Shown here piece after piece: positions 26,201-61,860 of a stretch of 64,000 nt of DNA. Origin of the DNA: Trematomus loennbergii (Eukaryota; Chordata; Actinopteri; Perciformes; Nototheniidae); NCBI GenBank assembly GCA_012861695.1, contig JAAOOA010000033.1:22439434-22503433 (forward strand). The letters are read 5' to 3'. Positions within the stretch are counted from its first letter, which is position 1. Every line of letters starts with the position of its first letter. The position numbers were made by a program, and so were the translations under genes. The notes below the pieces were generated by a model, which saw only the letters and a program-made list of their open reading frames with translations, had not been told where the DNA came from and made no database searches.

Positions 26201-29200
26201 AATATAACCAACCGTAGCTGGGGACCAAAGCTTTGTAGGAAGGATCAGCCAGTGCTCCGCTCATGAAGCCAAAACTGGAGCCTCCGTGGAACATGTAGAG
26301 ATTCACAGACATGCCTTGCCTCAGAATTTCTCTCACAGTGGAAACCATATCTGACAAGAAGTTCAACAAGTTACATTTACAACAAATTCACTTCTTAAAA
26401 ACATAAATGTACAACAGGAAATCACATTACAGTGTTTAACCCAAGTCAATTAAAGCGTTTTGACCCTCTGCTGACCTCTTTGTCACAGGCTAGAATAAAT
26501 CAAAAGGAGATTGGCCTTAATTTCACATTTGCATTTCCATTGTTGTCATGTAGCTGGCGTTCTTCATGACAGCAGGACGAAAATACTAATTACTGAGTGA
26601 GATAGGAAGCATTTGTTTACAGCAGGGTGACTTGATATTAATTCGGCTGGTGGGTAAGAAATATTTATGAAGAGAGTCAGTGGCCTAGAAAAAGCCATCA
26701 GAACAGACATAATAAATTGTCTTTCTGTCCTGTGGCATATGAGAAACCAATGGCGTTCAATCTGAAAACAGCCTTACGTTAATGAGTTTTGTTTGTTGCA
26801 GAATTGGATTTTACCAATATGTTTTAGTAGATTTATTTCTGTCAAAAATGTACTTTAAAAGTGTTGCTGGTCAAAAAGCCACAAACAGACCAAGAAGAAC
26901 TTACATTCCTTGGGTCCCTTGAAAAGCGCTATATAAATGCAAGCTATTATTATTATTATTATTGTATTCTCCAGGGCACGAGTGAATCACATTTCATGAA
27001 AATATTTGTGTTCCAGACTAAAAGTGAAATAGTAAGTAATATTGGGAAACATTAAGACCTATATATGAAAAAGCAATGCTGAACAATCCATTCAGGAATA
27101 AAACTTGCAAAACAAATATTTCATTGAATGTTTTGAAGTAGCTGTGATCTAGGGAACTTCCATCAAATTTGCTAAATGTATCCAGCATATTTGTATTTGT
27201 TATGACCTTTGTTAGATAATTGAGAAACCGAAAAATGAGGGAAGGGAGAAAGGGGAATATCATGCAACAAAAGCTCAGGAACTATATTTTTTGTACAATG
27301 CTGCTAATTATTAGGATTTTCATTTTATTATGATTTATTTAGCAGGGATGTGTACTTATTTGATTTAATTAATGTTTGCTTGCCTCTTTTTTATATGTTA
27401 GCCTAGTGTCTTTTTGTCTGCACTGTCCTTTTGCTGTAACAATGTCATTTTACCAGCTGAATCAAGGATTTTCCGTTTCAGTTAAATGTATAAAGTATGT
27501 ACCTTAAACATTCAAATTGGGTAGTATGAAAACAAAATCGCCATATATAAAAATTCAGTGCAAGGATGATATAGGCTAATTAGCAATCATTTTCCCTCTA
27601 TAAAGACACTGACAAAAATAAGTGCCTTTCTTACCCTCTAGAGGAAGCACATGGTGGAGGTCCCCCCACACATCATATCCACCGGTCCAGTAGTCCATCA
27701 CCATCATGGGGCTGTTAGGCTGACACAGTGCAGAAAATGTCCAACATTTGGCTCACTGTCCAGTGTTTAATCACTGTTAGCGTGATATCTTCAATGTCAG
27801 AAAGTCACATATTGTGGAAAGTAAAGATACAGACCTGGATAGAGTTCAGATCCTGGATATCTCTCTGATTAAGCTTCTGCAGCTTCACTGATCTGATGGC
27901 TACAAGATAGGAGATCACAATGTATGTGTATTATTAAACAGCCTCCATTATGCATTTAGGGTTGTCCTTTTCCTGTAGTGTGTTATATAGGTTTTAGTGC
28001 ATATAAATGGTCTGCAAAGGCTAAAATCCCTGTGTTCCCTCCAGAGGGAGTTTCTCTCTTTTCACACACTCCCCACCTGCCTGAAACGCCTCCATTGGAC
28101 TCATTTGTTTACTTCCGTAACATAATGACATCACTACGTAAACATTTCACTTCTATTGGCTAGCGCTCAACACATTGTACGTGATAGGCTAAGGGGCGGG
28201 ATATCTCTAAGCTGTTGACCAATCACAACAGAGCCGGTCAGCTAACCAATCAGAGCGGACTGGGCTCTGGTTTCAGACAGAGGGTGAAAAGAGGTGCTGC
28301 AGCACAGGCAGTATGAGAAAAAGAAAGAGCTTTTTGAACATTAAAGCATGGAGACATGTCCCAGTAGAGACACTAAATAACCTGAAAATGAGCAGAATAT
28401 TACTTGTACCTCCATCCACACCTCCAGACTTTAATGTGTTGTGGTTGTCTGATGTGAGCAAGAGCTCGCTGATCCCTCTGGACTGTAAAGCCTTTCAAAA
28501 TAAAAAGAAATGTTGCAAAAGAAAATATATGAACACTATCATAATGATCCATTCTATCATTATCAATCTCTTTTTATACAAGTATGTATTTTTACGCAGG
28601 TTTAAAGTGGCAATTTGAATTAAGCAAGCCTAATACATCACCTCTTTAATAAACAGCATGTAACTTTCGTCCTTTGCATATGAACCATACTCGTTTTCCA
28701 CCTGCACTGCAATGATTGGACCTCCCTTCTTGAACTAAAAAACATAAACAATGACAGTAGGTTATATGATCTAGACGTAAACCAGACTTGGTTATATCTC
28801 TCACAGGCTCCGCCCTCTACTGGACTCTATGGGTACTACCTTATCATGCTAGCATTCACCTACTGAGTCTTCTATAGACGTAGCCGGCCCCGGGGCGGGC
28901 CTACCTGAATGCGCGTGCATCTCACCGTATAAAAGGAGGCCTCGCCTCCTGACCGTCATCCCTTTCTCTTCAGCGAGCGGAAGTGAACACTGAGCAAAGA
29001 CGTGAATAGAGAAAGAGAAGAAAAGTGGACTCACCACTCCTTGAGCCCCGGACCTGCCAGACATGCCCTGGCCTGATCGCAGGGGCTGATCCGCACCGCC
29101 TGTGCTTCCAGTGCCTGGGGCCGGACCACGCCGAAGACGGTCGCCGGCCTGCAACGCCTGCCGGATGATCCCTCGGCTAAACCGCCGACATCATGGGGAT

Positions 29201-32200
29201 CTTTTCCGGGTGAAGTTCGGCCAGGGGTCGGGTGGCCACGGTCACGGAGGAGGAAGACGACGAGGAAGCCTCGTTGTCTGGCACTTTCGGGTCCGGCGGC
29301 CAGGAAGGTCCAGCACAGGTCTGCGCGTCTGGACTTCCCGACGGTGATGACCCTGGCGGTGGAGCGTGTGGGCCTACCGCTCCCCCCCACCGCTGCCACC
29401 GAGGCCAGTAAGCCGCCTTCGACAGGGGTTTTACGGCCCGGTGCATCCGGCACAGCCGGCCTTCGTCTCGTCCCCGGTGCCAGATGTCTGGCAGTATGTG
29501 GAGGCGACGTGGCAGCAGCCATTGAGGACGAAGGCCCCGATAACAGCCATGGCAGGTATCATCAGGGTGCAGGGCCGCTCGGACACGGCGTGTCCCGGTG
29601 TGCCCCCCCTCGACGAGAGTCAGGCGGCCCATCTGCTTCCGCAGGCAGCTGGTTGGGCGGAGGGAAAGAAACCTCTGGCCCCGCTACCGCGGCCCCGAGA
29701 CACCTTAGAATATTTGGATAAAATATTCAGGCTCGGGGCACAGATGGCAGCTGCGACGAATAATCTCGGTGTGTTGGGTGTCTCCCTGTTTACCCCTCAG
29801 ACGGACACCCCCGCCCTCCCGCCTCAGGACGGGAGCGATTATCCGGACCGCTGCATCGGTCAGATGAATAATCGGATCCATGGAGTGGCCGCCGCAGCGG
29901 GGCGGGTGATGTCGCGTCACGTGTGGCTAGGACTCACCTTCCTATCCAAGAAGGGCCGAGAGTGTCTCCTTGTACCCCCCGTGTCTACGGAGGGGCTCTT
30001 CGGATCGATATCCTCGGTCACCCAGCGCTTCAGCCGCCTAGAGGAGGAGAGGGGGCAGCTTAGCCACATGCTACCGCTGGCTCTTCCTCAGGTGCCGCAG
30101 CGCGCTCCTCCACGGGCTTCCCTGCAGACGAGCGCAGCGCGACGGTGAGACGAAGGGAGAGGCGCCGGCACGGAGCTCCCGTGCCCGTGGCGCCCTCCAC
30201 CTCTTCGGCCCACCCCGTGGAACCGGCGTACCAGCACTCACGGGGGCGGGCTGCCTGACCTTGGCAGGCTCCTCAGCAGCAGAGAGCGGACGGGTGGGGT
30301 GCTCCGTCTTCACGGAGCTGGCGGGGGAGAAAATCTCTCGAATCCCGCCTCCTCCCTGTATATTGCACAGATCCATATTTTTTTATCTGTATCCAAGTCT
30401 GAGTGTCATTTGTTTCCACAATTCTACACTCACACACAATGTTGACCGTACAAATTCCCCACTCGCTGCCCCAGTGTAGCTCCTGTGAAGGAGGTAGCTA
30501 GTGGGCATGCGCAGATGAGAGTGATAAATCGCAGAAAGTGCTATCAGAGCGCTATGCGGGTACAGGGGCATTATGGCCGGCGTATTACTGTCAGGGAACA
30601 CAGTACGCCTAGAGTAAAGACTCTGATTAATGCCCTTTACCGTAGTGGTAAAGAGGACATTATGGTGGAGCGCACGCTCACACAAGAGCGCGCGGCGGTG
30701 CGTTCAGGGACCTCAGTAAAAAATCTGCCCTTTCTGTGTCAACCCTCCATGGGCAGAACCTCCCTTCACGGGGAGTTTTGCGGCGGAACGGGTCACCAGG
30801 GAGTACCACAGCTTCATGGCTGGGGCCCCACAGCTGAGGGCTTGACACAATGTTATGGGGAATGGAAACTCAGCTGTGTGTTAACAAAGTGGATGGACAG
30901 GACGCTGAAATGGGGTTATTCACTCCAGTTTTGCAGCATCCCACCTCCATTCAAAGGTATGCGAGAGGTAAATCTATTATCCCAGGAGGAGATGGGTTTC
31001 CTCTCGGCAGAGATTCCGCAGCCTGAATCGGCACATTGCCTGCAGAAAATTCATGTTAACTATAAAATAGTTACTGGGGCTAGTGCGACCGGGCGATTGG
31101 TTCACCACCATCGACCTGAAAGACGCATACTTTCATGTGGAAATTGCTCCGGAGCACAGAAAGTATCTGCGTTTTGCCTTCCAGGGGATAGCCTACGAGT
31201 ACAACAGATTACCGTTCCGCTACTCCCTATCCCCACGCACGCATCCATGGCATGAGAGTTTTATTTTACCTAGACGACCTCATAGTCATGGCCAGGTCCA
31301 GGGAACAGGCAATGTTTTGCACAGCGCAATTGATCCTACACCTAATCTAGTTGGGCTTTGTGATCAATTGGAAAAAGAGCACCCCCATACCTCACCAACA
31401 GGCGCTGTATTTGGGAGTGACGCTCGATGCAGGCGCACTGCGCGCCACCCTGTCAGAGAGCAGACGTGCGTCCCTGCGTCGGGTGACCCCTCCGGTTCTG
31501 GGGGGCCCGGATCACCTCCATCACAGTGTTCACGGAGAACAGGATGGGGAGGGACCTGCCTGAAGAGGGCTATAGGTGGGCGCTGGTCTCTAACAGAAAC
31601 ACGGCACAGTAGCCCCGGGCAGTAGTGTTGGTCCTCCAGCAAATCAAGCCCCTAATTCAGGGGAAACATGTACTGGTCAGGAGCGACAACAGCACCACAG
31701 TGGCATACATCAACAGGCAGGGCGGAGTCCACTCCGCCTCCTTGTTGCCTACAGCGGAGAAACTGTGGTTATGGGCTTCAGAGGTGGTGTTATCTCTGAG
31801 AGCCCTCCACATCCCGGGACTGGAGAACAGGGGGCCCGACCTCATGTCGGGGGGCGGAAGGGGTGAAGCAGGTCTGGGCCCAGTTCGGGAGAGCAAAGGT
31901 GGACCTGTTCGCCAGCCGGCGCAACAGCCACTGTGCCCTGTGCTTCTCCATGGCTCTGAGCGACGACCCGCCCTTGGGGGTGGATGTGTTCGCACACGAG
32001 CCATGGCCAAGAAAGCTGCTCTACGCCTTTCCACCGCTGCGTCTCATTCTCCCTCTCCTGGGGAGAACGTCTGTCAGTCATCCTAGTAGCACCGGATCGC
32101 GTCGGGGCACCGTGGTACTCAGAGATGACACAGATGAAGGTAGGCCAGCCCTCGGCGGTTCCCCAGTTCTGGGGGGCGATGTCTCAAGAGGCAGGTGCAA

Positions 32201-35200
32201 TCGGGGCGTTACCCACTCTGGGCCAACCTCTCCAGGCTTGGCTCCTGAGATGGACAGGCTGAGACAGGGTGGATTGACTGACAGTGTTATTCAGTCTATC
32301 CAGGCAGCTAGAGCGGGATCCACCACAGCCTGTTACAGGCCAAAGTGGCTGGGATTCCAGCGATGGTGTGAGGAGCGGAGAATAGAGCCCCTATCTTGTG
32401 AGTTGGGCTCTATGTCATCCTACTTACAGTTATTGGTGGACAGAGGGCTTGCTCATTCTACAGTGAAAGTATATGCAGCAGCCATCTCGGCCTGCCATGA
32501 GGGATTTGACGGCAGGTCAGCCTTTTTCTCAGCCACTGATGTCGCGGTTTTTACAGGGGGTCAGGAGGCTGCGCCCAGTAGTGCACGCCTCCGCCCCGCA
32601 GTGGGACCTGCCGTTGGTGCTCGAGGCTCTGGTCACAGAACCATTTGAGCCTCTGGAGCTCTCCTCCCTGAAAGACAGCATTGCTACTTGCCTTAACGTC
32701 AGCAAAGAGAGTGTCCGAGTTAACCGCACTGTCAGTGCACCAGAGTTGCTTGTTGATTCGGGGTGACCGGAGTGGGGCGACACTCAGACCGAACCCCTCC
32801 TTTGTGCCCAAGAGACTAAGGAGTGCGTTCAGGTCGAGGGGTATTCAGTTAGGGGGTTTAGTCTTGCACCCATAGTGGGGCCAGGGAAGCTAAATTGCAC
32901 CTCCTCTGCCCGGTGCGTGCGCTAGCATGTCATGTGGAGCGCACAGCTGCCCTTAGACGCACTGAACAGCTGTTTGTGTGCTTCGGGGGGGGTGACCGGG
33001 AGAGCTCTGTCCAAGAAACGCCTGGCAGGCTGGCTCTGCGAAGGCATTGCACATGCCTACGGACAGGCGGGGAGAGCCTGCCCCGCGGGGGTCCGTGCAC
33101 ACTCCACACGGGCTGTGGCTGTGTCAACAGCCTTATTCATCGGTGTGAGTGTGGGGGACATGGGGGCACTTGCGCTCTCCCCGTGCTCCTTAGGGACTCG
33201 GGAGAGGTGGTGCATAGTGAACCCATACAGGGCTGGGGACTTTCTCCGTCTGCCTATAGGCGGACGGGGGGAGCCCTCAGCACTGTTTCCGAGCACACTT
33301 TTCGCGAGGTAAGCACGTCAGGGTGTGTTCTGTCAGACGGACTTCTCCACGGTTACAACCGAGGGAGAGGTGAGTGAGGCGCAGCGGCGGCTAAAGCCGG
33401 TCAGGGACAGTGAGGTGGAACGGTGTGTTGAACGACAGTGCGTGTATACATGGGGCTCCGCCCACTGTACCCATAGAGTCCAGTAGAGGGCGGAGCCTGT
33501 GAGAGATATAACGAGGGGTTACGTATGGTAACCCTTGTTATATAAGCACAGGCGGAGCCCTCTATTCGGGGCACTGTCTGTCCTATACCGCTCGCTGAAG
33601 AGAGGTGTAGGATGACGGTCAGGAGGCGAGGCCTCCTTTTATACGGTGAGATGCGCGCGCATTCAGGTAGGCCCGCCCCGGGGCCGGCTAGGTCTATAGA
33701 AGTCTCAGTATGTGAATGCTTGCATAATAAGTTAGTACCCATAGAGTCCAGTAGAGGGCTCCGCCTGTGCTTATATAACAAGGGTTACCATACGTAACCC
33801 CTCGTTTCAGCTTTAGTGACTAATACTGACCTGCAGTGGAACCACTTTTGGTATGAGTTTGTCAAAGTAAGTATTGACAGCATCAGTGAAGCTTGGGTAA
33901 GTGGTTCTGAGTTTCATGCTGCCATCACGGAGGAGCCAGCTGCGAAGACACAGGAAACAAGAAGCTTAGTTATTCCTGAAGCCAAGAGCAGCCAGAACAA
34001 CAGAGGCACAGTAAGGCTTAGCATGAATTCATTCAGGAATTTAAGAATTTTAAATTGCTGGACAATGCTTCAATGTCTTCCCTTACCATGTGATTTATTC
34101 AGCTGACTCACCTCAAAAGTAGCAACTTTATGTTTCAGCTAGATTGATTTTGGGCTGCTGATATAAAGTTACAAATTAAATACCTTCATTCAACGATATC
34201 AACTTTTTGGACCTACTTTGGGTTTGAATGTATATACCCTATTTGTAGTTTATTTAGCGGTAGTAGGTTAGTGAGTGAGTCTTTTCTAACATATTCTTTA
34301 TAGTTTTATATTGTCTATTTTGTATTTTTTACTATGTAGATATAAATATGTAGATATAAATGTTTTTTTTAAGTATATATTTACTGGTTGTCTATTTTGT
34401 ATTTATATGCATGGACTTTTTACATGCTGCTGTAACAAAAACATTCCCAATTTAGGATAAAAAAGTATATCTAATCTAATTCAATTTATCTAAATCTGCA
34501 TCCTTGTTTTATACATACGAAGAAAAAAATGTCTAGATTGAATCCTGTATACATTTGGGTATTCATTTTAAATTAAATGTAAAGAATACTACCTTGGCAG
34601 CCCTCCTAGATCCAGCTCAGAGGAAATGTAGGGCCCTGGACGTAAAATCACCCACAGTCCCAGTTCAGCAGCGAGGTTAATATATGCTCTGAAACCAAGT
34701 CGGATAAGACAATGAATTAGCATTTTCTATTTAAAAACAAGTTTAGACCCAAAGTGAGCTCCATATCGTGTTGTTGGGGGAGTATGAAATGTGCTTTATG
34801 AAACTGTGACAGGCAAATGTCCCTGTTCACTCGTCACCACGGAGTTGTTAATTGCAGGACAAGCTCATGTTGTCTGGAATATGCTGCTGTTGTCAGGTGG
34901 GGCCTCAAGCCCCCCCCCCCCCTCCTCCGAGACCTGGGGCTTGGATAATGAGAAGAAGAAGAGAGTATTCCCAGCACACCTTAGAGCAGGTAATACTGTC
35001 AGAGCAGCAGGAGAGCTGGTGCAAGATGTTTTCATTCTTATTAGGGACATATGAACACTGAAAAAACTGAAACGTTGACCTAACTTAATATTATAGCTTT
35101 CAACTATCTTAATATAGTTATGTGAAATTTGTTGACAATACACATTTAATTAAAGTCAATGTTTAGTTTGTTCAGTTTAGGTTGCACATTTGGTTTAATG

Positions 35201-48053: not shown

Positions 48054-48455
48054 TAACTGGCTTGAGCGCGCTCACAAAATAAGTGCCCGCGCTAAATTAG
48101 TGCCCGTGCTCCAGCAAGTTACTGTGGGCTTACGAGAGGCAGAGCACGTCCCTGCCTCACTTCTTATTGCTCCCGGAGCGGAGCTCGGCAAATTTGCTAA
48201 TTTTGACTATAAAAAGCGATTGGAATCATACATAAATCACACTTACAACACAGATCAGTGGAGACATTTTATTATTATTACTATTTAGTTTTACTTTAGT
48301 TGTTTTTCCGTTACATTGGAGTATGACAGGTGAGGCTCTGCCTCCCCTGCCTCCCCTGACTGCACGTCGCTGGTGTATAGCCTATATAGGCTATATATAT
48401 ATAGGCCTATGCTATATATGATCTGAACGTTCCACTTCCTGCCTGCCCGACATAA

Positions 48456-49090
48456 CCCCTAGATTCCACCGGGTCCGTCTGCGGCACGTTACGGGCGCGT
48501 TACGGCTGCGCCGCGTTGCTCACGGCAATTGCGGCCACTCTAGTCAATGGGTGCTATTCCACCACACGCGGCGCGTTACGGCTCAGAAGCGGCTCGGCGC
48601 AGGGCTCCTCTAAAATTAGGATCGAATCCTATTTTTGTTGCGGCACAGCCGTAACGTAAAGTCGGGCAGGCAGGAAGTGGAACGTTCAGAGCTATATATA
48701 CACACACAAACTCATTTTGCAGACCCTATCCCTCCGTAGTCTTTCAAGTAGGAGGAGAAATGCCAGCGTTCTCCTCCGATTTACAGGCACTGTGTAAATT
48801 ATATATATATAGAACAATTATGATGATGAATGCATTTTTTTAACCACTAAAATACAGCAACACATCTTTGATTCATGTCGTTTATAACTGGAATATTACA
48901 GTTATTATTAACTTTGGCTGTACAAAGTAGCCTGTCCAGGAAATATGCCCAAATCAACAAAAACTGCGAGCCGGCAGGCAAGACGCTCCGCTTCTGAAAT
49001 GCTTCTGAAACGCGCCTGGTAGGGTATGACGCCGGAGGAGGCCGGACCAAACCGCAACGTGGCGCAGACGGACCCGGTGTAATCTAGGGG
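48456..49090 (-). mobile_element. CCCCTAGATTCCACC MITE, inner copy inserted into its own family
   Basis: Terminal repeats CCCCTAGATTCCACCGGGTC and, in inverse, GACCCGGTGTAATCTAGGGG. Flanks are TAA (48453-48455) and TTA (49091-49093). It lies in reverse orientation inside the outer copy, which resumes at 49091 with TTACGTTACGGCTGCG. Confidence 0.9.
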
Positions 49091-49257
49091 TTACGTTACG
49101 GCTGCGTCGCGTAAAAAATAGGATTCATCCTAATTTTAGAGGAGCCCTGCGCCGAGACGCTTCTGGGATGCTTCTGGGACGCTTCTGAGCCGTAACGCGC
49201 AGCGTGTGGTGGAATAGCACCAATTGACTAGAGTGGCTGCGATCGCCGCGGCGCAGA

Positions 49258-49511
49258 TTGAAGCATTTTACTTTAAAATGTTCAAAAAATCTTCCCGGGG
49301 GGCATACCCCCGGACCCCCCTAGAGGAGGTGATGTCCACCCCCCAATTAAAACATGTTCATACAATACTGAATACATTTGAAGCCATTTTGACGTCTATT
49401 ACCTATGTCAATAAGTTTCTGTTTTTGTAGTGTATTTGTCTTTTGCAGAGATTTTTCATTTATTCTTTATATATAAAATCTCGCCTAGGGCAGCAAATTG
49501 GCTAGAACCGG
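49258..49511 (+). repeat. Remnant of another hAT-like element
   Basis: Contains CCCGGGGGGCATACCCCCGG and ends CCTAGGGCAGCAAATTGGCT...CCGG. With CCGGCCCTG after the Ginger element (61651-61659), the joined flank resembles the GGCCGGCCCTG end common to a hAT family. The Ginger element seems to have landed in that CCGG. Inference. Confidence 0.4.
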
Positions 49512-51319
49512 TGTTCCGGATTAACTGGTTTCCCGATCAACTGGGGCACAGATGTGAGGGGCGTGGCCTTCGACTGAAATACACATTTCGATCGCTTCTT
49601 CTGTCGTTTACATAAATCTTTTGGTATATTTGGCTCGGTAGGAAGACTTTGATGCACATTCAGTACCAGTGTGTGAGGTTGTGGTTACGATGGCGATATC
49701 CGGACGCGAACAGCGAGGACTACAAAAAGAAACGAGTTGACTGGGGATGTCTGTTCAAAACATTGCGAGCTACAATAAATCATTTAAACCAGCTATTGTT
49801 GCCAGACTTATTACTGAATATCGTTCTTAATGTGATACCAAGTCCATCTGAGACCTGTGTACACCTTCAGATAGCCTCCAAGTGAAGCGTACGTTGTTTA
49901 CTCACAGTTTGAAAGCAGCGTGGAGAACTCCTCAGCTGTGGTAAGCTGTGACCCGCTCAGGTAAACGGCGATCCGCCCAGGGAACTGGGACCCGCCCATG
50001 TTAAACTGTGATCCACCCAGGTTAAACTGTGTTAAGACTTCTGTGGCTATCTACCAGCGATCATGTTTAATATGAAAGACTACTGAAGTAAAAGATATGA
50101 TTCTACACTGTATTGAAGTAAACATGTATTATTTTGAATTGTATTTTAGTGAACATGTATTGTTTGAACTGTTTTAAGTAATCACAACTGTTATAGGTAA
50201 TCACAACGGTTTTGGGTAATCATATATATAGAAATGATATTCTTACTTTCAAACTCACTGACCCAGAGATTCTGTTTCACACATACACCGCTCCTTTTCA
50301 CCCCTCCACAACAGATGTTGTTTTTAAAGTCGTTAAAGACCTCCTTAAATATGTGGAGAAAGGTTTAAATGTCTGAAAAAGGATAGTTTATGTGAAAAAC
50401 TCTCATGGGAAAGGAATGGAGTTAAGATTGGGACGGAGATAAAGGTTGACTTTTGACCTTGTGAAACTTAGGAATTTGACGTTCTGGTCAGAACTATTGA
50501 ACCCGACCAGAAGTGAATCCAGCCAGTAAAAACACTTGGGGAGGTGAGCAGCTTAGACAGCTCCTCCTCACAGACTCTCTCATTCGCTTTGGAATAAAAG
50601 GGGAGGGGAAAAGTTAACACATCTCCGCCCCAAAATAAGGATATGAATACTGATGTTTTTTGTATGTAAAAATACTTTTTGGTTTGGTGAGTGGTTGGTC
50701 CCGACATCTGTGTCCGCATCGCATCACAAACCTGAAGTCCGGAGTACTCTGTATAACTTGTATGTGAGTGACTGGTCCCGACATCTGTGTCCGCATCGCA
50801 TCACAGACCTGAAGTCCGGAGTACTCTGTATAACTTGTATATGTGTTTGGTTTCCTACCAGAAGTAAACTCAGATAATTGTTATAACTTTTGATTCCGGT
50901 GTTTTCAATTCCTTTCTTTATTTTAATAGAGATTTCAGCCTCATCCAACGAACGGCGCGTAGCAGAGGGGGTGGCTATCAGCCACCACAATAGGTGTTCT
51001 GCTCCAACACTACACACACATTTATCCCTTATAAAAACTGTATTCTGCAGCACTCATCCAGATAAGATGTGACTGTTAACTCGTTTTGCAAAGATAGCAG
51101 CAGAAATGTCATTGCTGCATGTGCAGGGATGCTTAGACTTTAAAATGCTGATGGGTCATTAATGTTGGTCTCGGCAAACAATATTAGGAGTCCTCTATTC
51201 AAACGTAATATTCAGTGTCCATCGACATGAAAATAACAAAAAAGTTCATGCTGGACTCAAAACCGAATCCCAATAGCAAATTTCACTCCAGCCCTGCGCG
51301 TTATGAGTGCGCCACGGAC
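49512..51319 (+). repeat. Left inverted arm of the Ginger1-like element
   Basis: Matches 61650-59917 in reverse. Excluding the solo LTR at 50084-51009 the arm is about 880 bp. A run of short G/C-box repeats is found at 49950-50035 (GACCCGCTCAGG, GATCCGCCCAGG, GACCCGCCCATG, GATCCACCCAGG). The inner end (about 51240-51319) has tRNA-like A- and B-box text in reverse. Confidence 0.88.
50084..51009. mobile_element. Solo LTR of a retroelement
   Basis: A 926-bp insertion beginning TG and ending CA, flanked by CTAC on both sides (50080-50083, 51010-51013). The other arm of the Ginger element reads straight through this site (GAAAGACTACACACACAT), so the limits are exact. No second LTR or coding region is present. 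Inside, a unit of about 76 bp (CCCGACATCTGTGTCCGCAT...) is repeated twice in tandem at 50698-50845. Confidence 0.85.
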
Positions 51320-51384
51320 CCAACACGATACCTTCTGGAGAATCATAAACGAAATCATTGTGTTCAAAACACTGACGTCAATTA

Positions 51385-51600
51385 CATTACATGACATTGC
51401 ATTTACCAGACGCTTTTATCCAAAGTGACTTACAATAAGTGCATTCGACCAAGAAGATGCAAACTTGAAGAAAACAGAATCATATAAGTAGCCTACATCA
51501 GGTTTCATAGAGCGAAAACATTTCAAGTGCTAATCAACTGGCTTTAGAAAAGCCAGTCCTTTATTAGTATATAAGTGCTTTGTTAATCATTCTAACGTCA
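51385..51600. repeat. Dispersed fish repeat (ACGCTTTTATCCAAAGTGAC)
   Basis: TTTACCAGACGCTTTTATCC...ACTTACAATAAGTGCATTCG is a very common dispersed sequence of teleost genomes. It lies inside the Ginger element between the arm and the gene. Confidence 0.5.
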
Positions 51601-51821
51601 ATAAATCCGTTACAAACTATTCTTGTTGTCAGTCTTACATTTGTATCATATATCGTTATTAATATGATGTCGAGTCGATTTGATACCCGTTTATACTTTC
51701 ATGCAGTCTGTTAGTGAAACATACAATTGAACAACAGGTGTACAGACTTATCATTAATTGGGGCATGGGTCCAGTCTATATAAGTTGGATTAACCTTTCA
51801 CAATTTTGTGTGGTTAGTGAG

Positions 51822-51965
51822 GAGATAGCGAGATATAGAGAGACATAGAGAGATACAGAGAGAGACAGAGAGAGACAGATAGAGAGAGATAGATAGATAG
51901 ATGATAGACAGACAGATAAAGAGAGAGATAGCGAGAGATAGTGAGATATAGTGAGTGATTGAGCG
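51822..51965. repeat. GATA/GAGA-type microsatellite
   Basis: Imperfect run of GAGATAGAGAGA, GATAGATAGATAG and GACAGACAGATA units just upstream of the Ginger gene. Confidence 0.85.
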
Positions 51966-52514
51966 TTGCCTGTGATAGAGTGATTGTCCTGGTGAGTGAT
52001 AGTGGGTGAGTAATTGAGGTGCGACTGTGTATTTGAGAGAGGCTGGTATTGTACGTTTGCGTGTATTTGTCACTTTGTTTGTTTGTCTTTGTTGTATTAA
52101 TTAGTTTGTGTGTGAATACGTGAGGGTAAGTAGGTAGGGAGGTGTTGGAAAATGGATCCCAGAATTGTCAAACAAATTCTGGATGTGAAAGTCCACCACC
52201 AGTATCCTGAGGGGTCAACAAAGAAAGACAAATATGTCATGAAGAGGAGAGCTGACACCTTCAGGATAAAGGGTAAGGATGCATGCCATATGGACTCTAG
52301 AACACAATGATAATATGCTATGGTAAAACTAATACATCTAATATTATGACATATAAACACCAGATGGAGAACTGTACTACATCTGCAGGCGCAAAAAAAA
52401 TAAAGCTGAGCACCTTGCCAAAGTGGTCTCTTCTTCCGAACAAACAAACGAACTGTTTGAGGAGTTTCACTGCAGCAATATTGGTGGACACTGTGGAGTG
52501 GAGAAGACTCATTA

Positions 52515-53438
52515 GCCTCGTCTCAATACCCCTCCTCGACTCCTCCTTTCCCTCACTCGCGTCCCTTCCTTGCGTCTTAGCTCCACCTCCGTAAGATGCG
52601 AGCGAGAGACACGAGGAGGTGACGCGAGGACAGAGGAGTCCTCAGGTATTAATTGGGATGTCTTCGTTCACTCAAACGTCACTCTTAAACGACGTCTGTT
52701 AATGATGACATGTGCACAGCTCTATCCCCTCTCATCGGGCTTAACTGAATAACCCCTTAGAACCGGCCCATTTGTTGTTAAATATGTATTTAAATGAATG
52801 AATCTTTCTCTTGTTAGTCAAGGAATTCAATGTATGATGGTTGGTCCTGCTTTTGTGTTCCGTTTTGGTGTAAAATGTACATTTCAATCTAATTATAATA
52901 ATGTGTCCTGTAGATCCCCACATTCAGGACTGCATTTTAAATAATTTATCAATATTTTAACACAAAACAAAACAAATAATTGTTATTTATCAAGATCTAG
53001 CCATTTATGAAATAGCTTTCTTAATAGCTATGTTTTAGTGACGTTCAAGATCATTAAACATGACTTAAATTGTTAGTATAACCTTAAGAAATGAATTGCA
53101 CATAATAATTCCCACGGAGCTGTGAGCACTTAGACATTTATGTGACGCTTTTCCACTCATTCTTCCAGTTCTCCGTTTTCCTCTGTTGAAATCGACCAGC
53201 TGTGAAGGTGGGGGCGGGGCTTTTATACGCGAGTAGTGAAAACACTTCCGCGTAGTCTGCTCTCGTGTATCCTCCCTTTCGTCTCCTCCCGCACCCCTCC
53301 TCCCTCACCCCTCCTCGACTCCTCTGTGTGCATTTCAGCTATTGGGACGTCCTTCAACATGGCGTGTCTTGATCGATTTCCGGGTCAAGTCCCGGAGGAG
53401 GGGAAGAGAGGAGTCGAGGAGGGGTATTGAGACGAGCC
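52515..53438. mobile_element. MITE inserted in exon 2 of the Ginger gene (TA target site)
   Basis: Ends GCCTCGTCTCAATACCCCTC and, inverted, GGCTCGTCTCAATACCCCTC. TA lies at both junctions (52513-52514, 53439-53440). Removing the element and one TA restores an open frame from VEKT to ALYYWPGM, which supports the limits. The 924-bp interior shows no transposase. A TA site suggests Tc1/mariner-type mobilisation. Confidence 0.82.
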
Positions 53439-53856
53439 TACTGTGCGATTATTGCTCTGTACTATTGGCCTGGCATGGAGAATGACATACGCAAGTGGGT
53501 GAGTTGGTATCTTCAAAATAATGTGGTGGAATACACATTCAGGTTCAAAAGTAGAGGACAGAGGAGTGTAACGTGTATTTAAAAATTGCTGATGCTGTAT
53601 GCGCAAACACCCTATCAGTTTAAAATATAATATAGCACATTTATTTGCACTACATATTTGTCATAACTTTGAAATGATGTTTGTCTGTTTTAGATTGCTC
53701 AGTGTCCACAGTGCCAGGCCAAGAGAGCCAACATTAAAGAAAAGCTGGAGTACAGTCCGATAGAGGTAAAAATCAACAATGGCATACTGGTATTGTCAGT
53801 GTAGAAACACGTCAACAGTGATTTACTGTAATGCTCATGTCTTTTTTTTCCCCCAG

Positions 53857-54090
53857 GTTACGGAGCCTTTTGAACTGGTTGGGATGGACTTAGTGGGTAA
53901 ACTCACAGTAACTGATGGTGGCAACCAGTACATATGTGTAATGGTTGACTATTTCACCAAATGGGCAGAGGCCTACCCACTTAAGACTAAAACAGCAGAA
54001 GAGGTGACCAATTGTATCCTTGATTTCTTTTACAAATTTGGTGCACCTCAAAGACTGCTAACAGACCAGGGCTCTGAGTTTTGCAACAAG
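53857..54090 (+). pseudogene. Integrase core exon of the Ginger gene
   Basis: A 78-codon exon in phase 0 at both ends, between a CCCCCAG acceptor and an AAG|GTATAG donor. It carries the first two catalytic Asp residues (GMDL and TDQG) and the gypsy-type signature VDYFTKWAEAYPLKTKTAEE. This exon itself is undamaged. The third catalytic residue belonged to the next exon (54173-54239), where the sequence jumps from CETLNIKR to KLNGTIQR, removing roughly 15 residues that normally include the Glu. Confidence 0.88.
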
Positions 54091-56094
54091 GTATAGTGTT
54101 GATGCAGTATGAATCCCCAATATGTAACTGTAGTTGCTGTGCTAACCTGTTTGTCCTAATGATCATTTCAAGGTCAACTCTGGCCTGTGTGAGACGCTGA
54201 ACATAAAAAGAAGAAGAAATTGAATGGCACTATCCAGAGGTATTGGTTTTCAATATCTGATGTAATTTACGCTCTTCATAGAATAACAAACACATTTCCT
54301 AATGACTAATGATATGTTGCTTTATCATACATGAGAACCCATATGCTCTCCTGCTTCCTCATACCTATACTTGAATTCTGCATTTTAAGGTCGTTGAACA
54401 AAATGGTGGCTGGTCACCCCAAACGCTGGGACCAGGTGCTCCAGTCCACCATGTTTGCTCTTCGGACCAAAAAGCAGCTGACCACAAAATACAGCCCCTA
54501 CTATTTGATGTTTGGGAGGGAGGCTAGGTATCCTTCAGAGGTGCCAAAGGAGTACCTGGTAAGATGTTCTAATGTTGTCATCCTTTTCAAACGTTTTCAT
54601 TTGGATCATCTGCCTTCTAAAATTCTAACTGTCATTTGTTGCAGGTCAAAGAAGAGAAAGTCAGCAGGCTGGTCGAAACGGAGGAGATCCATGAAGGCTT
54701 GAACAAACAGGAGGCTGTATTCACAGAGGTGAAACACAATATGAAAAGAAGCCAGGACAACGTCCGCAAAAGTAAAGTCAAAAAGGGCCAGGAGGACAAC
54801 TTCCAAGTAGGGGATCAGGTGTTGCGGAGGAACGTGAGACAGGAGCAAAGAAAAGGGGAAAGCTGGAGGATGACTGGTTGGGACCATTCATCATCCTGGA
54901 ACTAGAGGGGAAAAAGGCCATTGTTGGTAAGAGTGCAAAGAAGCTGCAGACAATATTGACCATTTGACACATTATTTCCAGCCAGAGGAGAGGATCCCTG
55001 CCAAACTACAAAAGTTGTCCGATCCCTCTCCTCTGGCTGGTCCACAACACACAGACACACATCCACACACACAAACACCCACCACACAAACACCACAAGT
55101 GGCACCTCCATCCATGGACTGCGACCGAAATGGCACCAAAGGATCCTGAACTTTGTAAGTAAACAGACAGAAAGTACACTCCAAATGATGCATTTCACAA
55201 ATAATTGCTATATTTACAGTAATTCGACAAATATGGACAGGGAGGAGAAAGGAGACGCTCTGGTGCAAGTTTGGGCCATATAAAGTGTATTCAGAAAACG
55301 TAATGGACTTGGCCCCAGGGAAGTGGTTGGAGGGAGAGGTAAGTTACAAAACAAAAGAATATTGGACTGATATTTATTGAGATTGTATCACAAGTTTTTT
55401 TTGTACTCTCAGATCGTCAATTCATAATTTGACTATGGTGGGAAAGAAAGCTGGCGCTTTCCTGATAGACTCCTACCTCATGACGTCGCTCTGGGAGGGA
55501 ACCCACAAAGGTTCTTTGAGAAGTGTGAGTAGGACTATATAGTAGGATGATTTCTTTTTTTGTACATAAGTAGGCCTATGTATTTTGTGTATATGTATGT
55601 TTGTATGTCCATACACACAAATACATACTTATGTTAGTGTATACATTAGTTGTTGGAATTATAATATTTGTTTTGAAACATGATGTGGCAGTTGGAGCAG
55701 TCTGCCACCACGGACACTTGACACTGATTGTAAGTAATCTTCAACGTAAACAGATCTAGACGGAACCATGACACTATCTGATGTAGGGGTTGGTTATAAT
55801 TAGTATTTGCATTTCCATAGATCATGTACCTAAAGGAGAAGCGGTCCCTGTACTTGGACCCATTTGGGGCCACAGAAGCACAGATCGAAAAATGCAAGGA
55901 CGTAACAAGGTGAATGAAATGTCAGCTTTGATGTGTGCATTAGATAAATACATGTATTCATACACCATGGATCATCTTTTGGGAGCAACAAAAAGGTAAT
56001 TCAAGCATTTTTGTCCTTGAACAGGATTCAAGTGATCTTGAATTAAATGATTTGACTTGGGCATATGTTAAAAATGGCAAACTGTAATTTTATT

Positions 56095-57850
56095 TTTTAT
56101 TTAACCTTTATTTAACCAGATAAAAACATTGAGATAAAATCTCATTTTCAATGCTGACCTGGCCAAGAAGGCAGCAACGTTACACATAACACATAACACA
56201 ACATATAAAATACAGAGAACATAACAAAGAAACAAAAGACGAAAAAGCAGTCACTACATTGTGCACATTAGGACAATAAAAAAAGTACACTACTTGTTAC
56301 TGCAAGAGCAGCTGGTGGTGAGGACTTCAGACAACTTCAATTTAAAACATGATATAGAGACAAGTGCCCTCAGTTTAAGGCGTGATTGAAGGTCATTCCA
56401 AGACCAAGGACCATAATAAGAAAGACTCCTTTTTCCAGCCTCAGTCCGTACAGTAGGTACCTGGAACCGTATCCAGGCACTAGATCTGAGGTTGTAAGAG
56501 TCACAAACTGGGGCAAATCTGACACATATGTAGAGTGGAAGGTTACCTAAAATGGCTTTATACATTAATAAAAACCAGTGCTGCATCCTACGCATAGTAA
56601 GTGAGGACCATCCAGTTAGGCTATACAGTGTGCAATGATGAGTCCTATAGGGTGCATTTGATATATAACGCAGTGCAGCATGGTAAAGTGGGTCAAGTTT
56701 GGCCAAAACAGTGGGACAGGCAAATCTATAAATGGTATCACCGTAGTCCAGCTGGGACAGGAATAAGCCAGAGACCAACCTTTTACGGGATGAAATTGAA
56801 AAACAACATTTAAATCTGAAAAGGAAGCCAAGAGTGAATTTCAATTTCTTTGTTAAAACTTCAATATGGTGTTTAAAGTTCAGATTACTGTCCAACCAAA
56901 AGCCCAGATATTTGTAGGTATCAACAAACTCAACAGAAACGCCATCAAGGGTGTCAATGGAGAGGCAAGAGGAGGATGCTGACTTGGGAGCAAAAAGCAT
57001 TGCTTTGGTTTTCTTACTGTTCAATAGCAGTTTAGAATCAAGAAGCGCATGATGCAGCGTGATAAAATCTGATTTTAAATTGGCAACGGCCATATCCAGA
57101 GAAGGAGCACACGAGTATACAATAGTGTCATCAGCATACATATGATAGGTAGAAAATTGCATCTGATTACAAATATTGTTTACATATAATAAAAAGAGCA
57201 AGGGCCCCAAGATAGAGCCCTGTGGAACTCCCTTCTCCAAGGTGACAGGGTCAGAGACAGTACTACCCAACCTGATGCATTGAGTACGGTCGGTTAGATA
57301 ACTCTGAAACCAGCAAATGGCATTGTGACCGAAACGAGACACCAACATAACATTAGACATAATGTGGTGATCTACAGTGTCAAATGCTTTGGCTAGGTCA
57401 ATAAACAATGCAACACAAACTGATTTCTTATCCAAAGCAGCCTTAATATCGTCTAAGACTTTCAGACTGGCAGTCACAGTACTGTGCTTTGATCTGAATC
57501 CAGATTGCATAGGGTTAAGGATGTTGTGTGAATTTAAAAAAAGTTTTAGCTGAGTAGAAACAAGGGACTCAAGAATCTTTGATAACACAGAAAGATTTGA
57601 GATAGGACGATAGATATTCAACTCCGTGGGATCACCAGCTTTCAAGAGGGGCGATACCAGAGCTTGCTTCCACACAGCTGGCAGTGTGTGAGTGGACAGG
57701 GAGAGATTAAAAATATCAGTTACTGGTTGTGCTATCATCTGAGCTGCAATTTTTAAAAAGAACGGGTCAAGGCCGTCAGGCCCGGCAGACTTTTTAGGAT
57801 CAATGAGTGCAAACCCTGTAAGACTTCAGAGACCGAGAAATAAGCGAAAT
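56095..57850 (-). mobile_element. 5'-truncated LINE (L2/CR1-type)
   Basis: The insertion lies antisense in a Ginger-gene intron. The 3' end near 56095 has TTTATTTAACCTTTATTTAA and CTGACCTGGCCAAGAAGGCA, a fish LINE 3'-end sequence. The 5' end is truncated within the reverse transcriptase at about 57850. Confidence 0.8.
56290..57738 (-). CDS. LINE reverse transcriptase (partial ORF2), open for 482 codons
   Basis: Copies element RNA into DNA at the target site. Blocks in order: LVSPLLKAGDPTELNIYRPI, VCVALFIDLAKAFDTVDH, LEKGVPQGSILGPLLFLLYV, YHMYADDTIVY (YADD catalytic site), LLLNSKKTKAMLF and YKYLGFWLDSNLNFKHHI. It ends with the thumb and C-terminal part (PWSWNDLQSRLKLR). These are L2/CR1/Jockey-type RT features. 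The frame continues upstream of the first ATG (DPKKSAGPDGLDPFFLK) to a one-base slip near 57800. The endonuclease domain is missing through 5' truncation. The long open frame suggests a young insertion, younger than the broken gene around it. Confidence 0.9.
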   Translation of the reverse strand: MIAQPVTDIFNLSLSTHTLPAVWKQALVSPLLKAGDPTELNIYRPISNLSVLSKILESLVSTQLKLFLNSHNILNPMQSGFRSKHSTVTASLKVLDDIKAALDKKSVCVALFIDLAKAFDTVDHHIMSNVMLVSRFGHNAICWFQSYLTDRTQCIRLGSTVSDPVTLEKGVPQGSILGPLLFLLYVNNICNQMQFSTYHMYADDTIVYSCAPSLDMAVANLKSDFITLHHALLDSKLLLNSKKTKAMLFAPKSASSSCLSIDTLDGVSVEFVDTYKYLGFWLDSNLNFKHHIEVLTKKLKFTLGFLFRFKCCFSISSRKRLVSGLFLSQLDYGDTIYRFACPTVLAKLDPLYHAALRYISNAPYRTHHCTLYSLTGWSSLTMRRMQHWFLLMYKAILGNLPLYICVRFAPVCDSYNLRSSAWIRFQVPTVRTEAGKRSLSYYGPWSWNDLQSRLKLRALVSISCFKLKLSEVLTTSCSCSNK

Positions 57851-58250
57851 CAAAAACAATAAATGTGTGTTTTGTGTGTAGAGCATTGGTCCGCAAGAGG
57901 TGTCCGGCAATAGGGAGATGGGCATGCGCAACCGTTGCTCACCCTAAGCAACAGGACTCGGCATCATGTGGGGTGTTTGTGTGCAAGGTAAACATTTGAT
58001 TATATCTGTTGCTATTTCTCATTATTAAAAAGTGCTCCAAATTATACTTATCGGACACTTTTTAGCTTGCAGAGCAGAGATTGTCTGGCCAAACAGTCGA
58101 CTACCCTGTTGACCAGAAGGGTGTGGCCATGTTGCGGCTGGACATGGCAATGTCTCTGGTGACAAATTCAGGTATACAGAACTCAAATACAGAAGGTATA
58201 CTTGAATGTGTCTATATTGCCATTAAACTACATTATCTTATTGTTTACAG

Positions 58251-58790
58251 ATGACCTATCCCAGCTCTGCAGGGCTTGTGGGGAGCTCAGCTCGGTGGCT
58301 GACATTGATACGTGGGTATGTAGAGAAACTCATGTCCTGACCAACCTTCTGCTGGAAGACTGGGATGCACCTTGGATAGGTTACCTCAACATCACTGGGT
58401 GAACACTCACTATCACACAGCTATTGAAAATGTATAGTTTAATTCACCTAACTTGCATGTCTTTGCACTTTCGGTGGGCACTGGAGCAGCTGAAGGATCA
58501 TACCACAGACTCCAAACAGAAAGGACCACAGCTAAGATGTTAACCCTATATCTGACACCCATTGCCATACTATGTAAAGAAATAATGTCTAAGGAAGTTA
58601 AAACGGCTTCATTTTACATCCTAATCAGGATGATTGATGTGAACCTGACAAAATGTTTGACAGTATTCTAAGGTATTTATCTTTTTCCCTGTCAGATTGA
58701 GTGCACCACCTGTCAAATGTGGTATCACGTTGGATGCATGGGACTGCCCTCCACAGAGGATGAGTATTTTGCCCTGCATGCAAGTCTTGA
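58251..58790 (+). pseudogene. PHD-finger exons of the Ginger gene
   Basis: Exon 58251-58315 reads LCRACGELSSVADIDTW and exon 58696-58790 reads IECTTCQMWYHVGCMGLPS, then, one base out of frame, EYFCPACKS and a stop. Together these are the C4HC3 zinc ligands of a PHD finger, a module that commonly reads histone H3 tails. A single missing T near 58770 removes the last Cys pair from the frame. This is the C-terminus of the transposase. Confidence 0.78.
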
Positions 58791-58794
58791 GTAC

Positions 58795-59150
58795 AACCTG
58801 CCTCAGGAGCTGCTGATCCAGTTCTACTCTTTCTACTTTCAACTCTGTCTACCCATAATCCCCCCCCTCTCAATCAACTTCATCTTGACTGCCTTTTCTG
58901 TTTATTTTATTTGACTATATTCATTTGTTTGCCTGTCCTTGTTTGTCTACCCTCCATCATACTGTAAAGCGAGTTTGAGTTGAAGAAAAGCGGTATATAA
59001 ATATAATGTATTATTATTATTATTATTACTCTGCAATAATCCAGTCTGTTCTCTGTACATCCATCGCTGTGTGGTTTGGATCCCAACAGGACAGAAAAAG
59101 GCTATATTCCTTGTATGTGTACACATGCCAAATAAAGCTGATACTGAATC
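58795..59150 (+). repeat. LINE/SINE tail and small RT-derived fragment
   Basis: The piece ending GAAAAGCGGTATATAAATAT and ATT repeats (to 59030) is a LINE-type 3' tail. It is followed by a fragment reading AIIQSVLCTSIAVWFGSQQD and a GCCAAATAAAGCTGATACTG end, similar to the extreme C-terminus and 3' end of fish LINEs of the Rex type. Confidence 0.5.
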
Positions 59151-59916
59151 ATTACTATCATTGTTGTTGTCTTTCCTTTTGTCACACTAATGAGTAAGTC
59201 TATCTACTGTACTATACAGAAGCAAAGCTTGCATTGCATATTAGAACATGAATTTGGCCACTGTTATTATAGTTGCAATATGTAAAATTAGCCCTTAGCA
59301 CACCATAGGGGACGTGATGCCTATGCTGTAAAGTATTTTATTTTGGTGAGTCTGTCGCAAGACAGAAAAGACAGCCAGTATTGCTAGAATATAAACCTTT
59401 TTTAAAATTGCATTCTGTTTCTAGCGCAACAGCTTTGATCCAGGTTTACATCCTATCAGCTACTGCATTAGCAGACATAGCAACAGGAAATGGGGGCCTA
59501 TTAAAAAAGTTAGTGTTTAAAAATGTCTATATTGTGAGGCTAAATATTATATTATAGCATAATGTTGCATGGCAAATGTAACGACACACATGGCCTGATT
59601 TGCATATTGGAACTTTATGTGTGCACTAGAACACATTTATATGTACAATTAACAGTTATCACAACATAATGTGGGCTCGCAGGCTGATAAACTAGGATAT
59701 CTGATCTCGGTGGGTCTTAATGAGGCTTGATACAGACCTCAGTCAGTAGCCTATACTATTTCTAAGCAAATGCCTACTATAATATGTATATTATAAGTGT
59801 AGATTCATTCGCTCACATTATAAATGATGGTCGGGTTGCATCTTTCTGGAACTTTTTAACAAGGTTATAATGCAAAATATTAAAGTCTAGTGGTGTACAG
59901 TATAACTTTGTGTAGA

Positions 59917-61650
59917 TCCGTGGCGCACTAGTAACGCGCAGGGCCCGAGTGATTTTTGCTGTTGGGACTCGGGTTTGAGTCCAGCATGAACTTTTTGTTA
60001 TTTTCATGTCGATGGACACTGAATATTACGTTTGAATAGAGGACTCCTAATATTGTTTGCCGAGACCAACATTAATGACCCATCAGCATTTTAAAGTCTT
60101 ACCCCTAGATTCCACCGGGTCCGTCTGCGCCGCGTTGCGGTTTTGGTCCGGCCTCCTCCGGCGTCATACCCTACCAGGCGCGTTTCAGAAGCATTTCAGA
60201 AGCGGAGCGTCTTGCCTGCCGGCTCGCAGTTTTTGTTGATTTGGGCATATTTCCTGGACAGGCTACTTTGTACAGACAAAGTTAATAATAACTGTAATAT
60301 TCCAGTTATAAACGACATGAATCAAAGATGTGTTGCTGTATTTTAGTGGTAAAAAAATGCATTCATTATCATAATTATTCTATATATATAATTTACACAG
60401 TGCCTGTAAACCGGAGGAGAACGCTGGCATTTCTCCTCCTACTGAAAGACTACGGAGGGATAGGGTCTGCAAAATTAGTTGTGTGTGTGTATATATCTAT
60501 ATATATAATATGCTATATATAGCTCTGAAAGTTCCACTTCCTGCCTGCCCGACCTTACGTTACGGCTGCGCCGCGACAAAAATAGGATTCGATCCTAATT
60601 TTAGAGGAGCCCTGTGCCGAGCCGCTTCTGGGACGCTTCTGAGCCGTAACGCGCCGCGTGTGGTGGAATAACACCCATTGACTAGAGTGGCCGCGATCGC
60701 CGTGAGCACCGCGGCGCAGCCGTAACGCGCCTGTAACGCGCCGCAGACGGACCCGGTGGAATCTAGGGGTAAGTATCCCTGCACATGCAGCAATGACATT
60801 TCTGCTGCTATCTTTGCAAAACGAGTTAACAGTCACATCTTATCTGGATGAGTGCTGCAGAATACAGTTTTTATAAGGGATAAATGTGTGTGTAGTCTTT
60901 CATATTAAACATGATCGCTGGTAGATAGCCACAGAAGTCTTAACACAGTTTAACCTGGGTGGATCACAGTTTAACATGGGCGGGTCCCAGTTCCCTGGGC
61001 GGATCGCCGTTTACCTGAGCGGGTCACAGTTTAACACAGATGAAGACTTCTCCACGCTGCGTTCAAACTGTGAGTAAACACCGTGTGCTTCACTTGGAGG
61101 CTGTCTGAAGGTGTACACAGGTCTCAGATGGACTTAGTATCACATTAGGAACGATATTCAGTGATAAATCGGGCAACAATAGCTGGTTTTAATGATTATT
61201 CGAGCGGATCACAGCTTACCACAGCTGAGGAGTTCTCCACGCTGCTTTCAAACTGTGAGTAAACAACGTAAGCTTCACTTGGAGGCTATCTGAAGGTGTA
61301 CACAGGTCTCAGATGGACTTGGTATCACATTAAGAACGATATTCAGTAATAAGTCTGGCAACAATAGCTGGTTTAAATGATTTATTGTAGCTCGCAATGT
61401 TTTGAACAGACATCCCCAGTCAACTCGTTTCTTTTTTTGTAGTCCTCGCTGTTCGCGTCCGGATATCGCCATCGTAACCACAACCTCACACACTGGTACT
61501 GAATGTGCATCAAAGTCTTCCTACCGAGCCAAATATACCAAAAGATTTATGTAAACGACAGAAGAAGCGATCAAAATGTGTATTTCAGTCGAAGGCCACG
61601 CCCCTCACATCTGTGCCCCAGTTGATCGGGAAACCAGTTAATCCGGAACA
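59917..61650 (-). repeat. Right inverted arm of the Ginger1-like element
   Basis: Reverse match of the left arm. It is interrupted by the MITE at 60102-60769 and carries an extra tandem copy of about 180 bp (61028-61195 against 61210-61380; each begins near CTTCTCCACGCTGC and contains CTTCACTTGGAGGC and GGTGTACACAGGTCTCAGAT). The inner end, 59917-59990, has a tRNA-like A box (CGTGGCGCACTAGTAACGC) and B box (GGTTTGAGTCC). Confidence 0.88.
60102..60769 (+). mobile_element. CCCCTAGATTCCACC MITE, complete copy
   Basis: Perfect inverted termini of at least 28 bp starting CCCCTAGATTCCACCGGGTC. Flanks are TTA (60099-60101) and TAA (60770-60772). The left arm of the Ginger element shows the empty site (AGTCTAAGCATCC in reverse, near 51128). 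The size (668 bp) and 3-bp TWA-like target fit PIF/Harbinger-type MITEs. Confidence 0.92.
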
Positions 61651-61860
61651 CCGGCCCTGGTACCAGGCCTCAAGAGCCTTTCTTGTGCTGGCAGACACAT
61701 AGAAACAAATTGGCGGGGCGCACTTCGCACGCGCACACACTAAAAAATGTCACGCGCTCCGCGCTCACATTATGCTGGACCCACGTGCCTTAGCACCGCT
61801 GCTATGACTCCATCCTAGGGGAAACACTGGGTTGAGGCAAGCTCACTCCCACATCCTGAG

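Follow-up and report, generated by a model that had tools for sequence, protein, structure and literature searches.

The stretch analysed here, a 64,000-nt window of the Trematomus loennbergii genome (GenBank assembly GCA_012861695.1, contig JAAOOA010000033.1, positions 22,439,434 to 22,503,433 of the forward strand), carries between positions 49512 and 61650 a broken, intron-containing transposase gene enclosed by long inverted arms. We consider it very probable that this is a now dead copy of a Ginger1 DNA transposon, of the Ulp1 plus PHD subtype, that was once mobile. The 17-mer TGTTCCGGATTAACTGG is found at 49512–49528 on the plus strand and, inverted, at 61634–61650 on the minus strand; these are its only matches in the whole window when up to two mismatches are allowed, and no match appeared in any of 100 shuffles. 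The element starts with TGT and closes with ACA, and CCGG directly adjoins each end on the outside. An initial annotation made from the letters alone had described such TGT/ACA-ended inverted 17-mers with CCGG outside each, and its end points, 49512 and 61650, are confirmed in the window.

The large inverted repeat reported there is likewise borne out. The outermost arms (49508–49728 and 61434–61654) are 100% complementary over 221 bp and run inward in pieces to about 51318 and 59917, giving a compound terminal inverted repeat (TIR) of about 880 bp in total. With nested insertions excluded, the outer four arm pieces agree in 787 of their 792 ungapped columns (5 mismatches; another 5 columns contain gaps), a divergence of ~0.6%; with the innermost piece included, 859 of 874 match, the innermost 80 bp being 89% alike. 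A 184-bp unit in the right arm (61017–61200) has no counterpart in the left arm and is ~90% like its neighbour at 61202–61386 and 91.3% like the left arm. The arms were therefore either unequal earlier or have been homogenised, and their divergence does not date the insertion. Both ends contain a 16-bp terminal direct repeat in 1.9 copies (49514–49544 on the left) and a 21-bp subterminal repeat in 4.4–4.5 copies (49940–50029 on the left), which may be candidate binding sites.

The gene between the arms encodes an integrase, followed by a Ulp1/SENP-type protease and then a PHD finger. We placed the exons by comparison with relatives and by splice sites, the latter chosen by us among candidates beside breaks in homology; of the 14 introns so inferred, 13 are GT–AG, while the acceptor before exon 10 lacks AG. 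Pfam matches to Integrase_H2C2 (PF17921, E 6.7e-18) and rve (PF00665, E 9.6e-16) are both above cut-off and a match to PF09337 is under its own; Peptidase_C48 (PF02902, E 6.1e-05, 23.4 bits versus a cut-off of 20.7) and PHD (PF00628, E 7.1e-06, 26.4 bits versus 24) pass by 2–3 bits only. When the parts were compared with solved structures, the best matches of the integrase part were the prototype foamy virus (PFV) and Ty3 integrases, and the PHD part matched PHD fingers from E 5e-4. For the Ulp1 part no SENP match was obtained among solved chains, adenoviral proteinase appearing at E 0.036 to 0.61. What we take to be the catalytic His, Asp, Gln and Cys positions of Ulp1 are readable in exons 8–13. 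P0009, a relative with an unbroken reading, matched foamy-virus integrase at E 4e-29 and SENP1/SENP2 at a best E of 5e-10 among solved chains; Pfam detected no PHD finger in it at E 1e-3.

According to the literature, Ginger1 is marked by TGT ends, CCGG, a YPYY motif, an H2C2 finger, a DDE core, GPY/F and Ulp1 (PMC2836005), and Ulp1 with PHD is listed for one family, Ginger1-9_HM (PMC2836005). The window copy has the H2C2 finger and a Gypsy-type DDE core; a deletion has removed the third catalytic residue of this core, which relatives keep. By eye, WLGPF, out of frame in the window, corresponds to WLGPY in the Pseudochaenichthys georgianus protein P0001, and QYP...F...LYY in exons 1–2, before the finger, reads as YPYY against relatives. 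Ginger1 proteins carry Ulp1 or OTU at the C-terminus; the window copy has Ulp1 there and, as in that one listed family, a PHD finger.

Protein searches returned 201 relatives at E ≤ 1e-3. Among the best 120 of these, 90 carry fish names (45 species by our count), 85 of them in rows 1–87 and 5 in the last 33 rows; the rest, besides P0009 and P0049, are retroelement-like proteins from other sources. The best matches are notothenioids, P0001 being 87% identical over 44% of the query. Precomputed domains place integrase, Peptidase_C48 and PHD together in 6 of the same 120 (P0003, P0012, P0014, P0026, P0051 and P0059). An alignment search gave 209 relatives, the best 120 of which add, among others, a sea-urchin protein. 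The claim that such fish copies are uncommon needs correcting in that fish records commonly contain related proteins. Two further kinds of domain arrangement were observed: in P0153 (Strongylocentrotus purpuratus) the domain joined to the integrase is a ubiquitin-specific protease (PF00443) and neither Ulp1 nor OTU, possibly a further Ginger1-like variant, and P0151 and P0154 carry an integrase and a PHD finger with no Ulp1 in the precomputed domain list. P0001 had no match in viral contigs. A single viral contig (L001) contains the 17-mer, preceded by GCAT rather than CCGG and followed by different sequence, and this match was judged to be chance.

For a tree, we picked 39 relatives and dropped P0019 (a short match), leaving 38 and the window copy, 39 rows in all. 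In it, 17 relatives (P0009 and 16 with fish names) group with the window integrase at 100/100, and the remaining 21 rows fall outside this group. Eleven rows were labelled by us as retroelement polyproteins; nine of these have a reverse transcriptase or RNase H among their precomputed domains, and P0103 and P0164 do not. Long branches lead to P0110, P0113, P0103, P0172 and P0094. The tree bears on the idea that a Gypsy long terminal repeat (LTR) retrotransposon left a remnant here, its integrase part caught between inverted LTRs, as the PFV and Ty3 matches and the TG..CA ends common to LTRs would allow. We regard this as very improbable, since the tree separates the window integrase from the retroelement rows, Ulp1 and PHD parts come after the integrase, and a tblastn search of the 12,139-bp span with eight retroelement proteins gave matches to the integrase core at 53.8–54.7 kb only, and to no reverse transcriptase, RNase H or protease part. 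The sole reverse transcriptase found inside the element is a LINE-type (long interspersed nuclear element) open reading frame (ORF) on the opposite strand. Domains, relatives, tree, ends and CCGG agree in making Ginger1 in a fish, as first proposed, a well-supported reading at the level of sequence.

Several observations weigh against that reading. Being a palindrome, CCGG is taken in by the inverted arms automatically, and it could itself be the outermost part of the inverted repeat. The terminal sequence is TGTTC, with C at base 5 where TGTNR calls for a purine; we take this as a one-base departure from a sequence preference. The TIR of about 880 bp compares with 40–270 bp in the Ginger1 families of 2010, a descriptive range drawn from invertebrates, and the 14 inferred introns with 0–4, also a descriptive range. 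We also count against it that the joined exon translation has an X placed at each lesion, and that no protein labelled Ginger1 occurs in the tree or among the matches listed. TIR length, intron number and base 5 all depart from published Ginger1 and would be expected of a separate superfamily of long-ended, intron-rich integrase transposons. We give that proposal very little credence, because CCGG, TGT/ACA, H2C2, the DDE core, GPY/F, the YPYY-like stretch and Ulp1 agree with the published descriptions and Ulp1 with PHD is on record for Ginger1-9_HM (PMC2836005).

The CCGG duplication put forward in the initial annotation stands in part: CCGG is present on both sides, and the palindrome leaves doubt. 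No exact flanking duplication of 2–12 bp exists outside CCGG, the nearest candidate agreeing at 4 of 8 bases. Published Ginger1 target sites are 75% CCGG and 24% CCGT/ACGG (PMC2836005). Counting CCGG as part of the repeat would leave the element without any duplication, which, together with the family precedent, favours CCGG as the target duplication; the CCGG flanks are thus probably a target-site duplication, as judged from sequence. Joined, the flanks (49265–49507 and 61655–61670) seem by their motif to resemble the end of a hAT element, and the insertion may therefore lie inside a hAT terminal repeat. An empty site, CAGGGCCGGTTCTAGCC with up to three mismatches, had no match in the window, and GTACCAGG, a possible hAT duplication, had three there (1.4 expected), none of them useful. 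A relaxed pattern matched nine times in the window (2.96 expected; none of 100 shuffles reached nine), always with 2–3 mismatches and never tied to the flank of the element. A 79% match near 42.7 kb proved on reading to lack such an end.

The earlier description of a spliced gypsy-type integrase gene holds for the integrase domains and the introns; the gene, however, is broken. The relatives' SLCSAYHPQTNGLVE, which, going by retroviral integrases, presumably holds the catalytic glutamate, is missing from exon 5. Frameshifts occur before and after GPY/F and in exon 9, and an insertion splits exon 2. Given the deletion and the frameshifts beyond it, the gene is, on its sequence, catalytically dead and the copy unable to make active transposase. 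These lesions also speak against a host gene derived from Ginger1, like GIN1 or GIN2, that came by chance to lie inside an old inverted duplication. Such genes are a relevant comparison: GIN1 and GIN2, compared here by description, are reported Ginger1 derivatives (PMC2836005) with six to eight introns (PMC2836005), and GIN2 is present in fish with eight coding exons (PMC3424704); its location is reported to be constant, between OGFOD2 and ABCB9 (PMC3424704). This origin is the least credible of those considered, because deletion, frameshifts and the exon 2 insertion break the gene, the arms terminate in TGT/ACA next to CCGG, Ulp1 and PHD parts are present, and the icefish Chaenocephalus aceratus alone accounts for 15 of the best 120 relatives, as for a repeated element.

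Returning to the Ginger1 transposon, the family and retroviral-type integrases suggest how it would have moved. The transposase would bind the long inverted termini, cleave at TGT/ACA and join the ends across a 4-bp stagger at CCGG, so that the inserted element would have CCGG on both sides. During transposition the SUMO-protease-like domain and the PHD finger would probably act on sumoylation and chromatin. Because near-identical arms (~0.6%) stand beside a gene with several lesions, the transposase of another copy may have acted in trans to move the window copy or, alternatively, gene conversion may have evened out the arms of the window copy.

The size given in the initial annotation, 12.1 kb, needs revision. 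The 12,139 bp between the ends include four later insertions (Table 1); with these removed, the native element measures about 7.9 kb, the ends of two insertions being approximate. For each insertion in the arms the empty site is the opposite arm, which is uninterrupted there. The left-arm insertion appears to be a solo LTR, endogenous retrovirus-like, and the right-arm miniature inverted-repeat transposable element (MITE) appears Harbinger-like, both classes resting on ends and duplication only. Kin of this MITE lie at 48455–49091 (a 91% copy immediately to the left of the Ginger1 copy), 38.7–39.0 kb and 45.8–45.9 kb. At the insertion point in exon 2, the C. aceratus relative P0002 reads straight through. 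The intron 11 retrotransposon matches RVT_1 in Pfam (E 6.9e-34), and its best solved-structure matches are R2 and LINE-1 chains.

Table 1. Coordinates of the transposon, its gene and its nested insertions in the window
Feature	Position	Strand	Remarks
Left target-site duplication (probable), CCGG	49508–49511		CCGG also at 61651–61654
Left TIR, outer part	49512–50083	+	Arm comparison; holds 16-bp and 21-bp repeats
Insertion in left arm, TG...CA, 926 bp	50084–51009		CTAC on both sides; right arm has uninterrupted site GAAAGACTACACACACAT
Left TIR, inner part	51010–51318	+	Arm comparison
Integrase-type transposase part, exons 1–7	52152–54926	+	YPYY-like stretch, H2C2 finger, DDE core, LGPF (GPY/F); frames broken
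MITE-like insertion in exon 2	52510–53443		43-bp inverted ends, 91% complementary; junction approximate
Exon 5	54173–54239	+	Lacks SLCSAYHPQTNGLVE of relatives; out of frame beyond gap
Ulp1/SENP-type (Peptidase_C48) part, exons 8–13	55220–58171	+	Pfam and relatives
Non-LTR retrotransposon in intron 11	56090–57835	-	ORF 56290–57825; ends approximate
PHD finger, exons 14 and 15 with intron 14 between	58251–58775	+	Pfam and relatives; end approximate
Right TIR, inner part	59917–60101	-	Arm comparison
MITE in right arm, CCCC...GGGG, 668 bp	60102–60769		Between TTA and TAA (one mismatch); left arm uninterrupted
Right TIR, outer part	60770–61650	-	Arm comparison; holds extra 184-bp unit
Right target-site duplication (probable), CCGG	61651–61654		

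Other mobile elements were seen elsewhere in the window. A DIRS-like retroelement, as its class appears, occupies 28791–33806, with inverted ends of 160 bp (94%) and 46 bp (100%) and a reverse transcriptase-like ORF at 31071–31625 (RVT_1, E 1e-4, 22.5 bits, under the cut-off of 29.6). An apparent Harbinger-type transposase lies on the minus strand at 1048–2042 in two overlapping frames (DDE_Tnp_4, E 4.8e-22 and 8e-12). An inverted repeat at 9317–10100 has 175-bp arms, 93% complementary, with 434 bp between them; the searched stretch ended at 10100, and the repeat is possibly longer.

The closest described systems are Ginger1-9_HM and the other Hydra Ulp1-type Ginger1 elements, which share with the window copy the integrase, Ulp1, PHD, TGT ends, CCGG and introns (PMC2836005). 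Compared by description and not by sequence, Ginger1-9_HM measures 3,758 bp with a 120-bp TIR and 2 introns (PMC2836005), whereas the window copy has about 7.9 kb without nested insertions, a TIR of about 880 bp, 14 inferred introns and a broken gene. P0001, P0002 and P0012 (Triplophysa dalaica) have, like the window copy, an integrase followed by Ulp1 and/or PHD, but they retain HPQTNGLVE, which is gone from it; the comparison covers the proteins of all three, and P0001 and P0002 are partial gene models. Ginger2/TDD shares the integrase-type transposase and TGT ends but differs in its AT-rich target and in having no GPY/F or YPYY (PMC2836005). Teleost Ginger counts are already in print (PMC4746887, PMC6404401; as Ginger1, PMC6505133), as are Ginger1 relics in frog, coelacanth, turtle and alligator (PMC9004415); in two further papers, PMC9341512 and PMC10298351, the name matched nothing but that of an author. 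In the available parts of the literature found, which did not cover Repbase, no individual fish Ginger1 copy is described, fish Ginger appearing as totals in tables or lists.

The element is a good example of a kind already known and not a new system; overall it is ordinary. It is conceivable, though we think it unlikely, that it represents a distinct teleost Ginger1 lineage with very long compound ends and an intron-rich gene, whose integrase introns are perhaps ancestral and kept in GIN1/GIN2 and whose defective copies were moved in trans. What the locus provides is a fish Ginger1 copy with both ends, a probable target mark and the full domain order. If intact copies share its introns, it could be asked which introns of GIN1 and GIN2 came from the transposon, and what role the SUMO protease and the PHD finger have in transposition.

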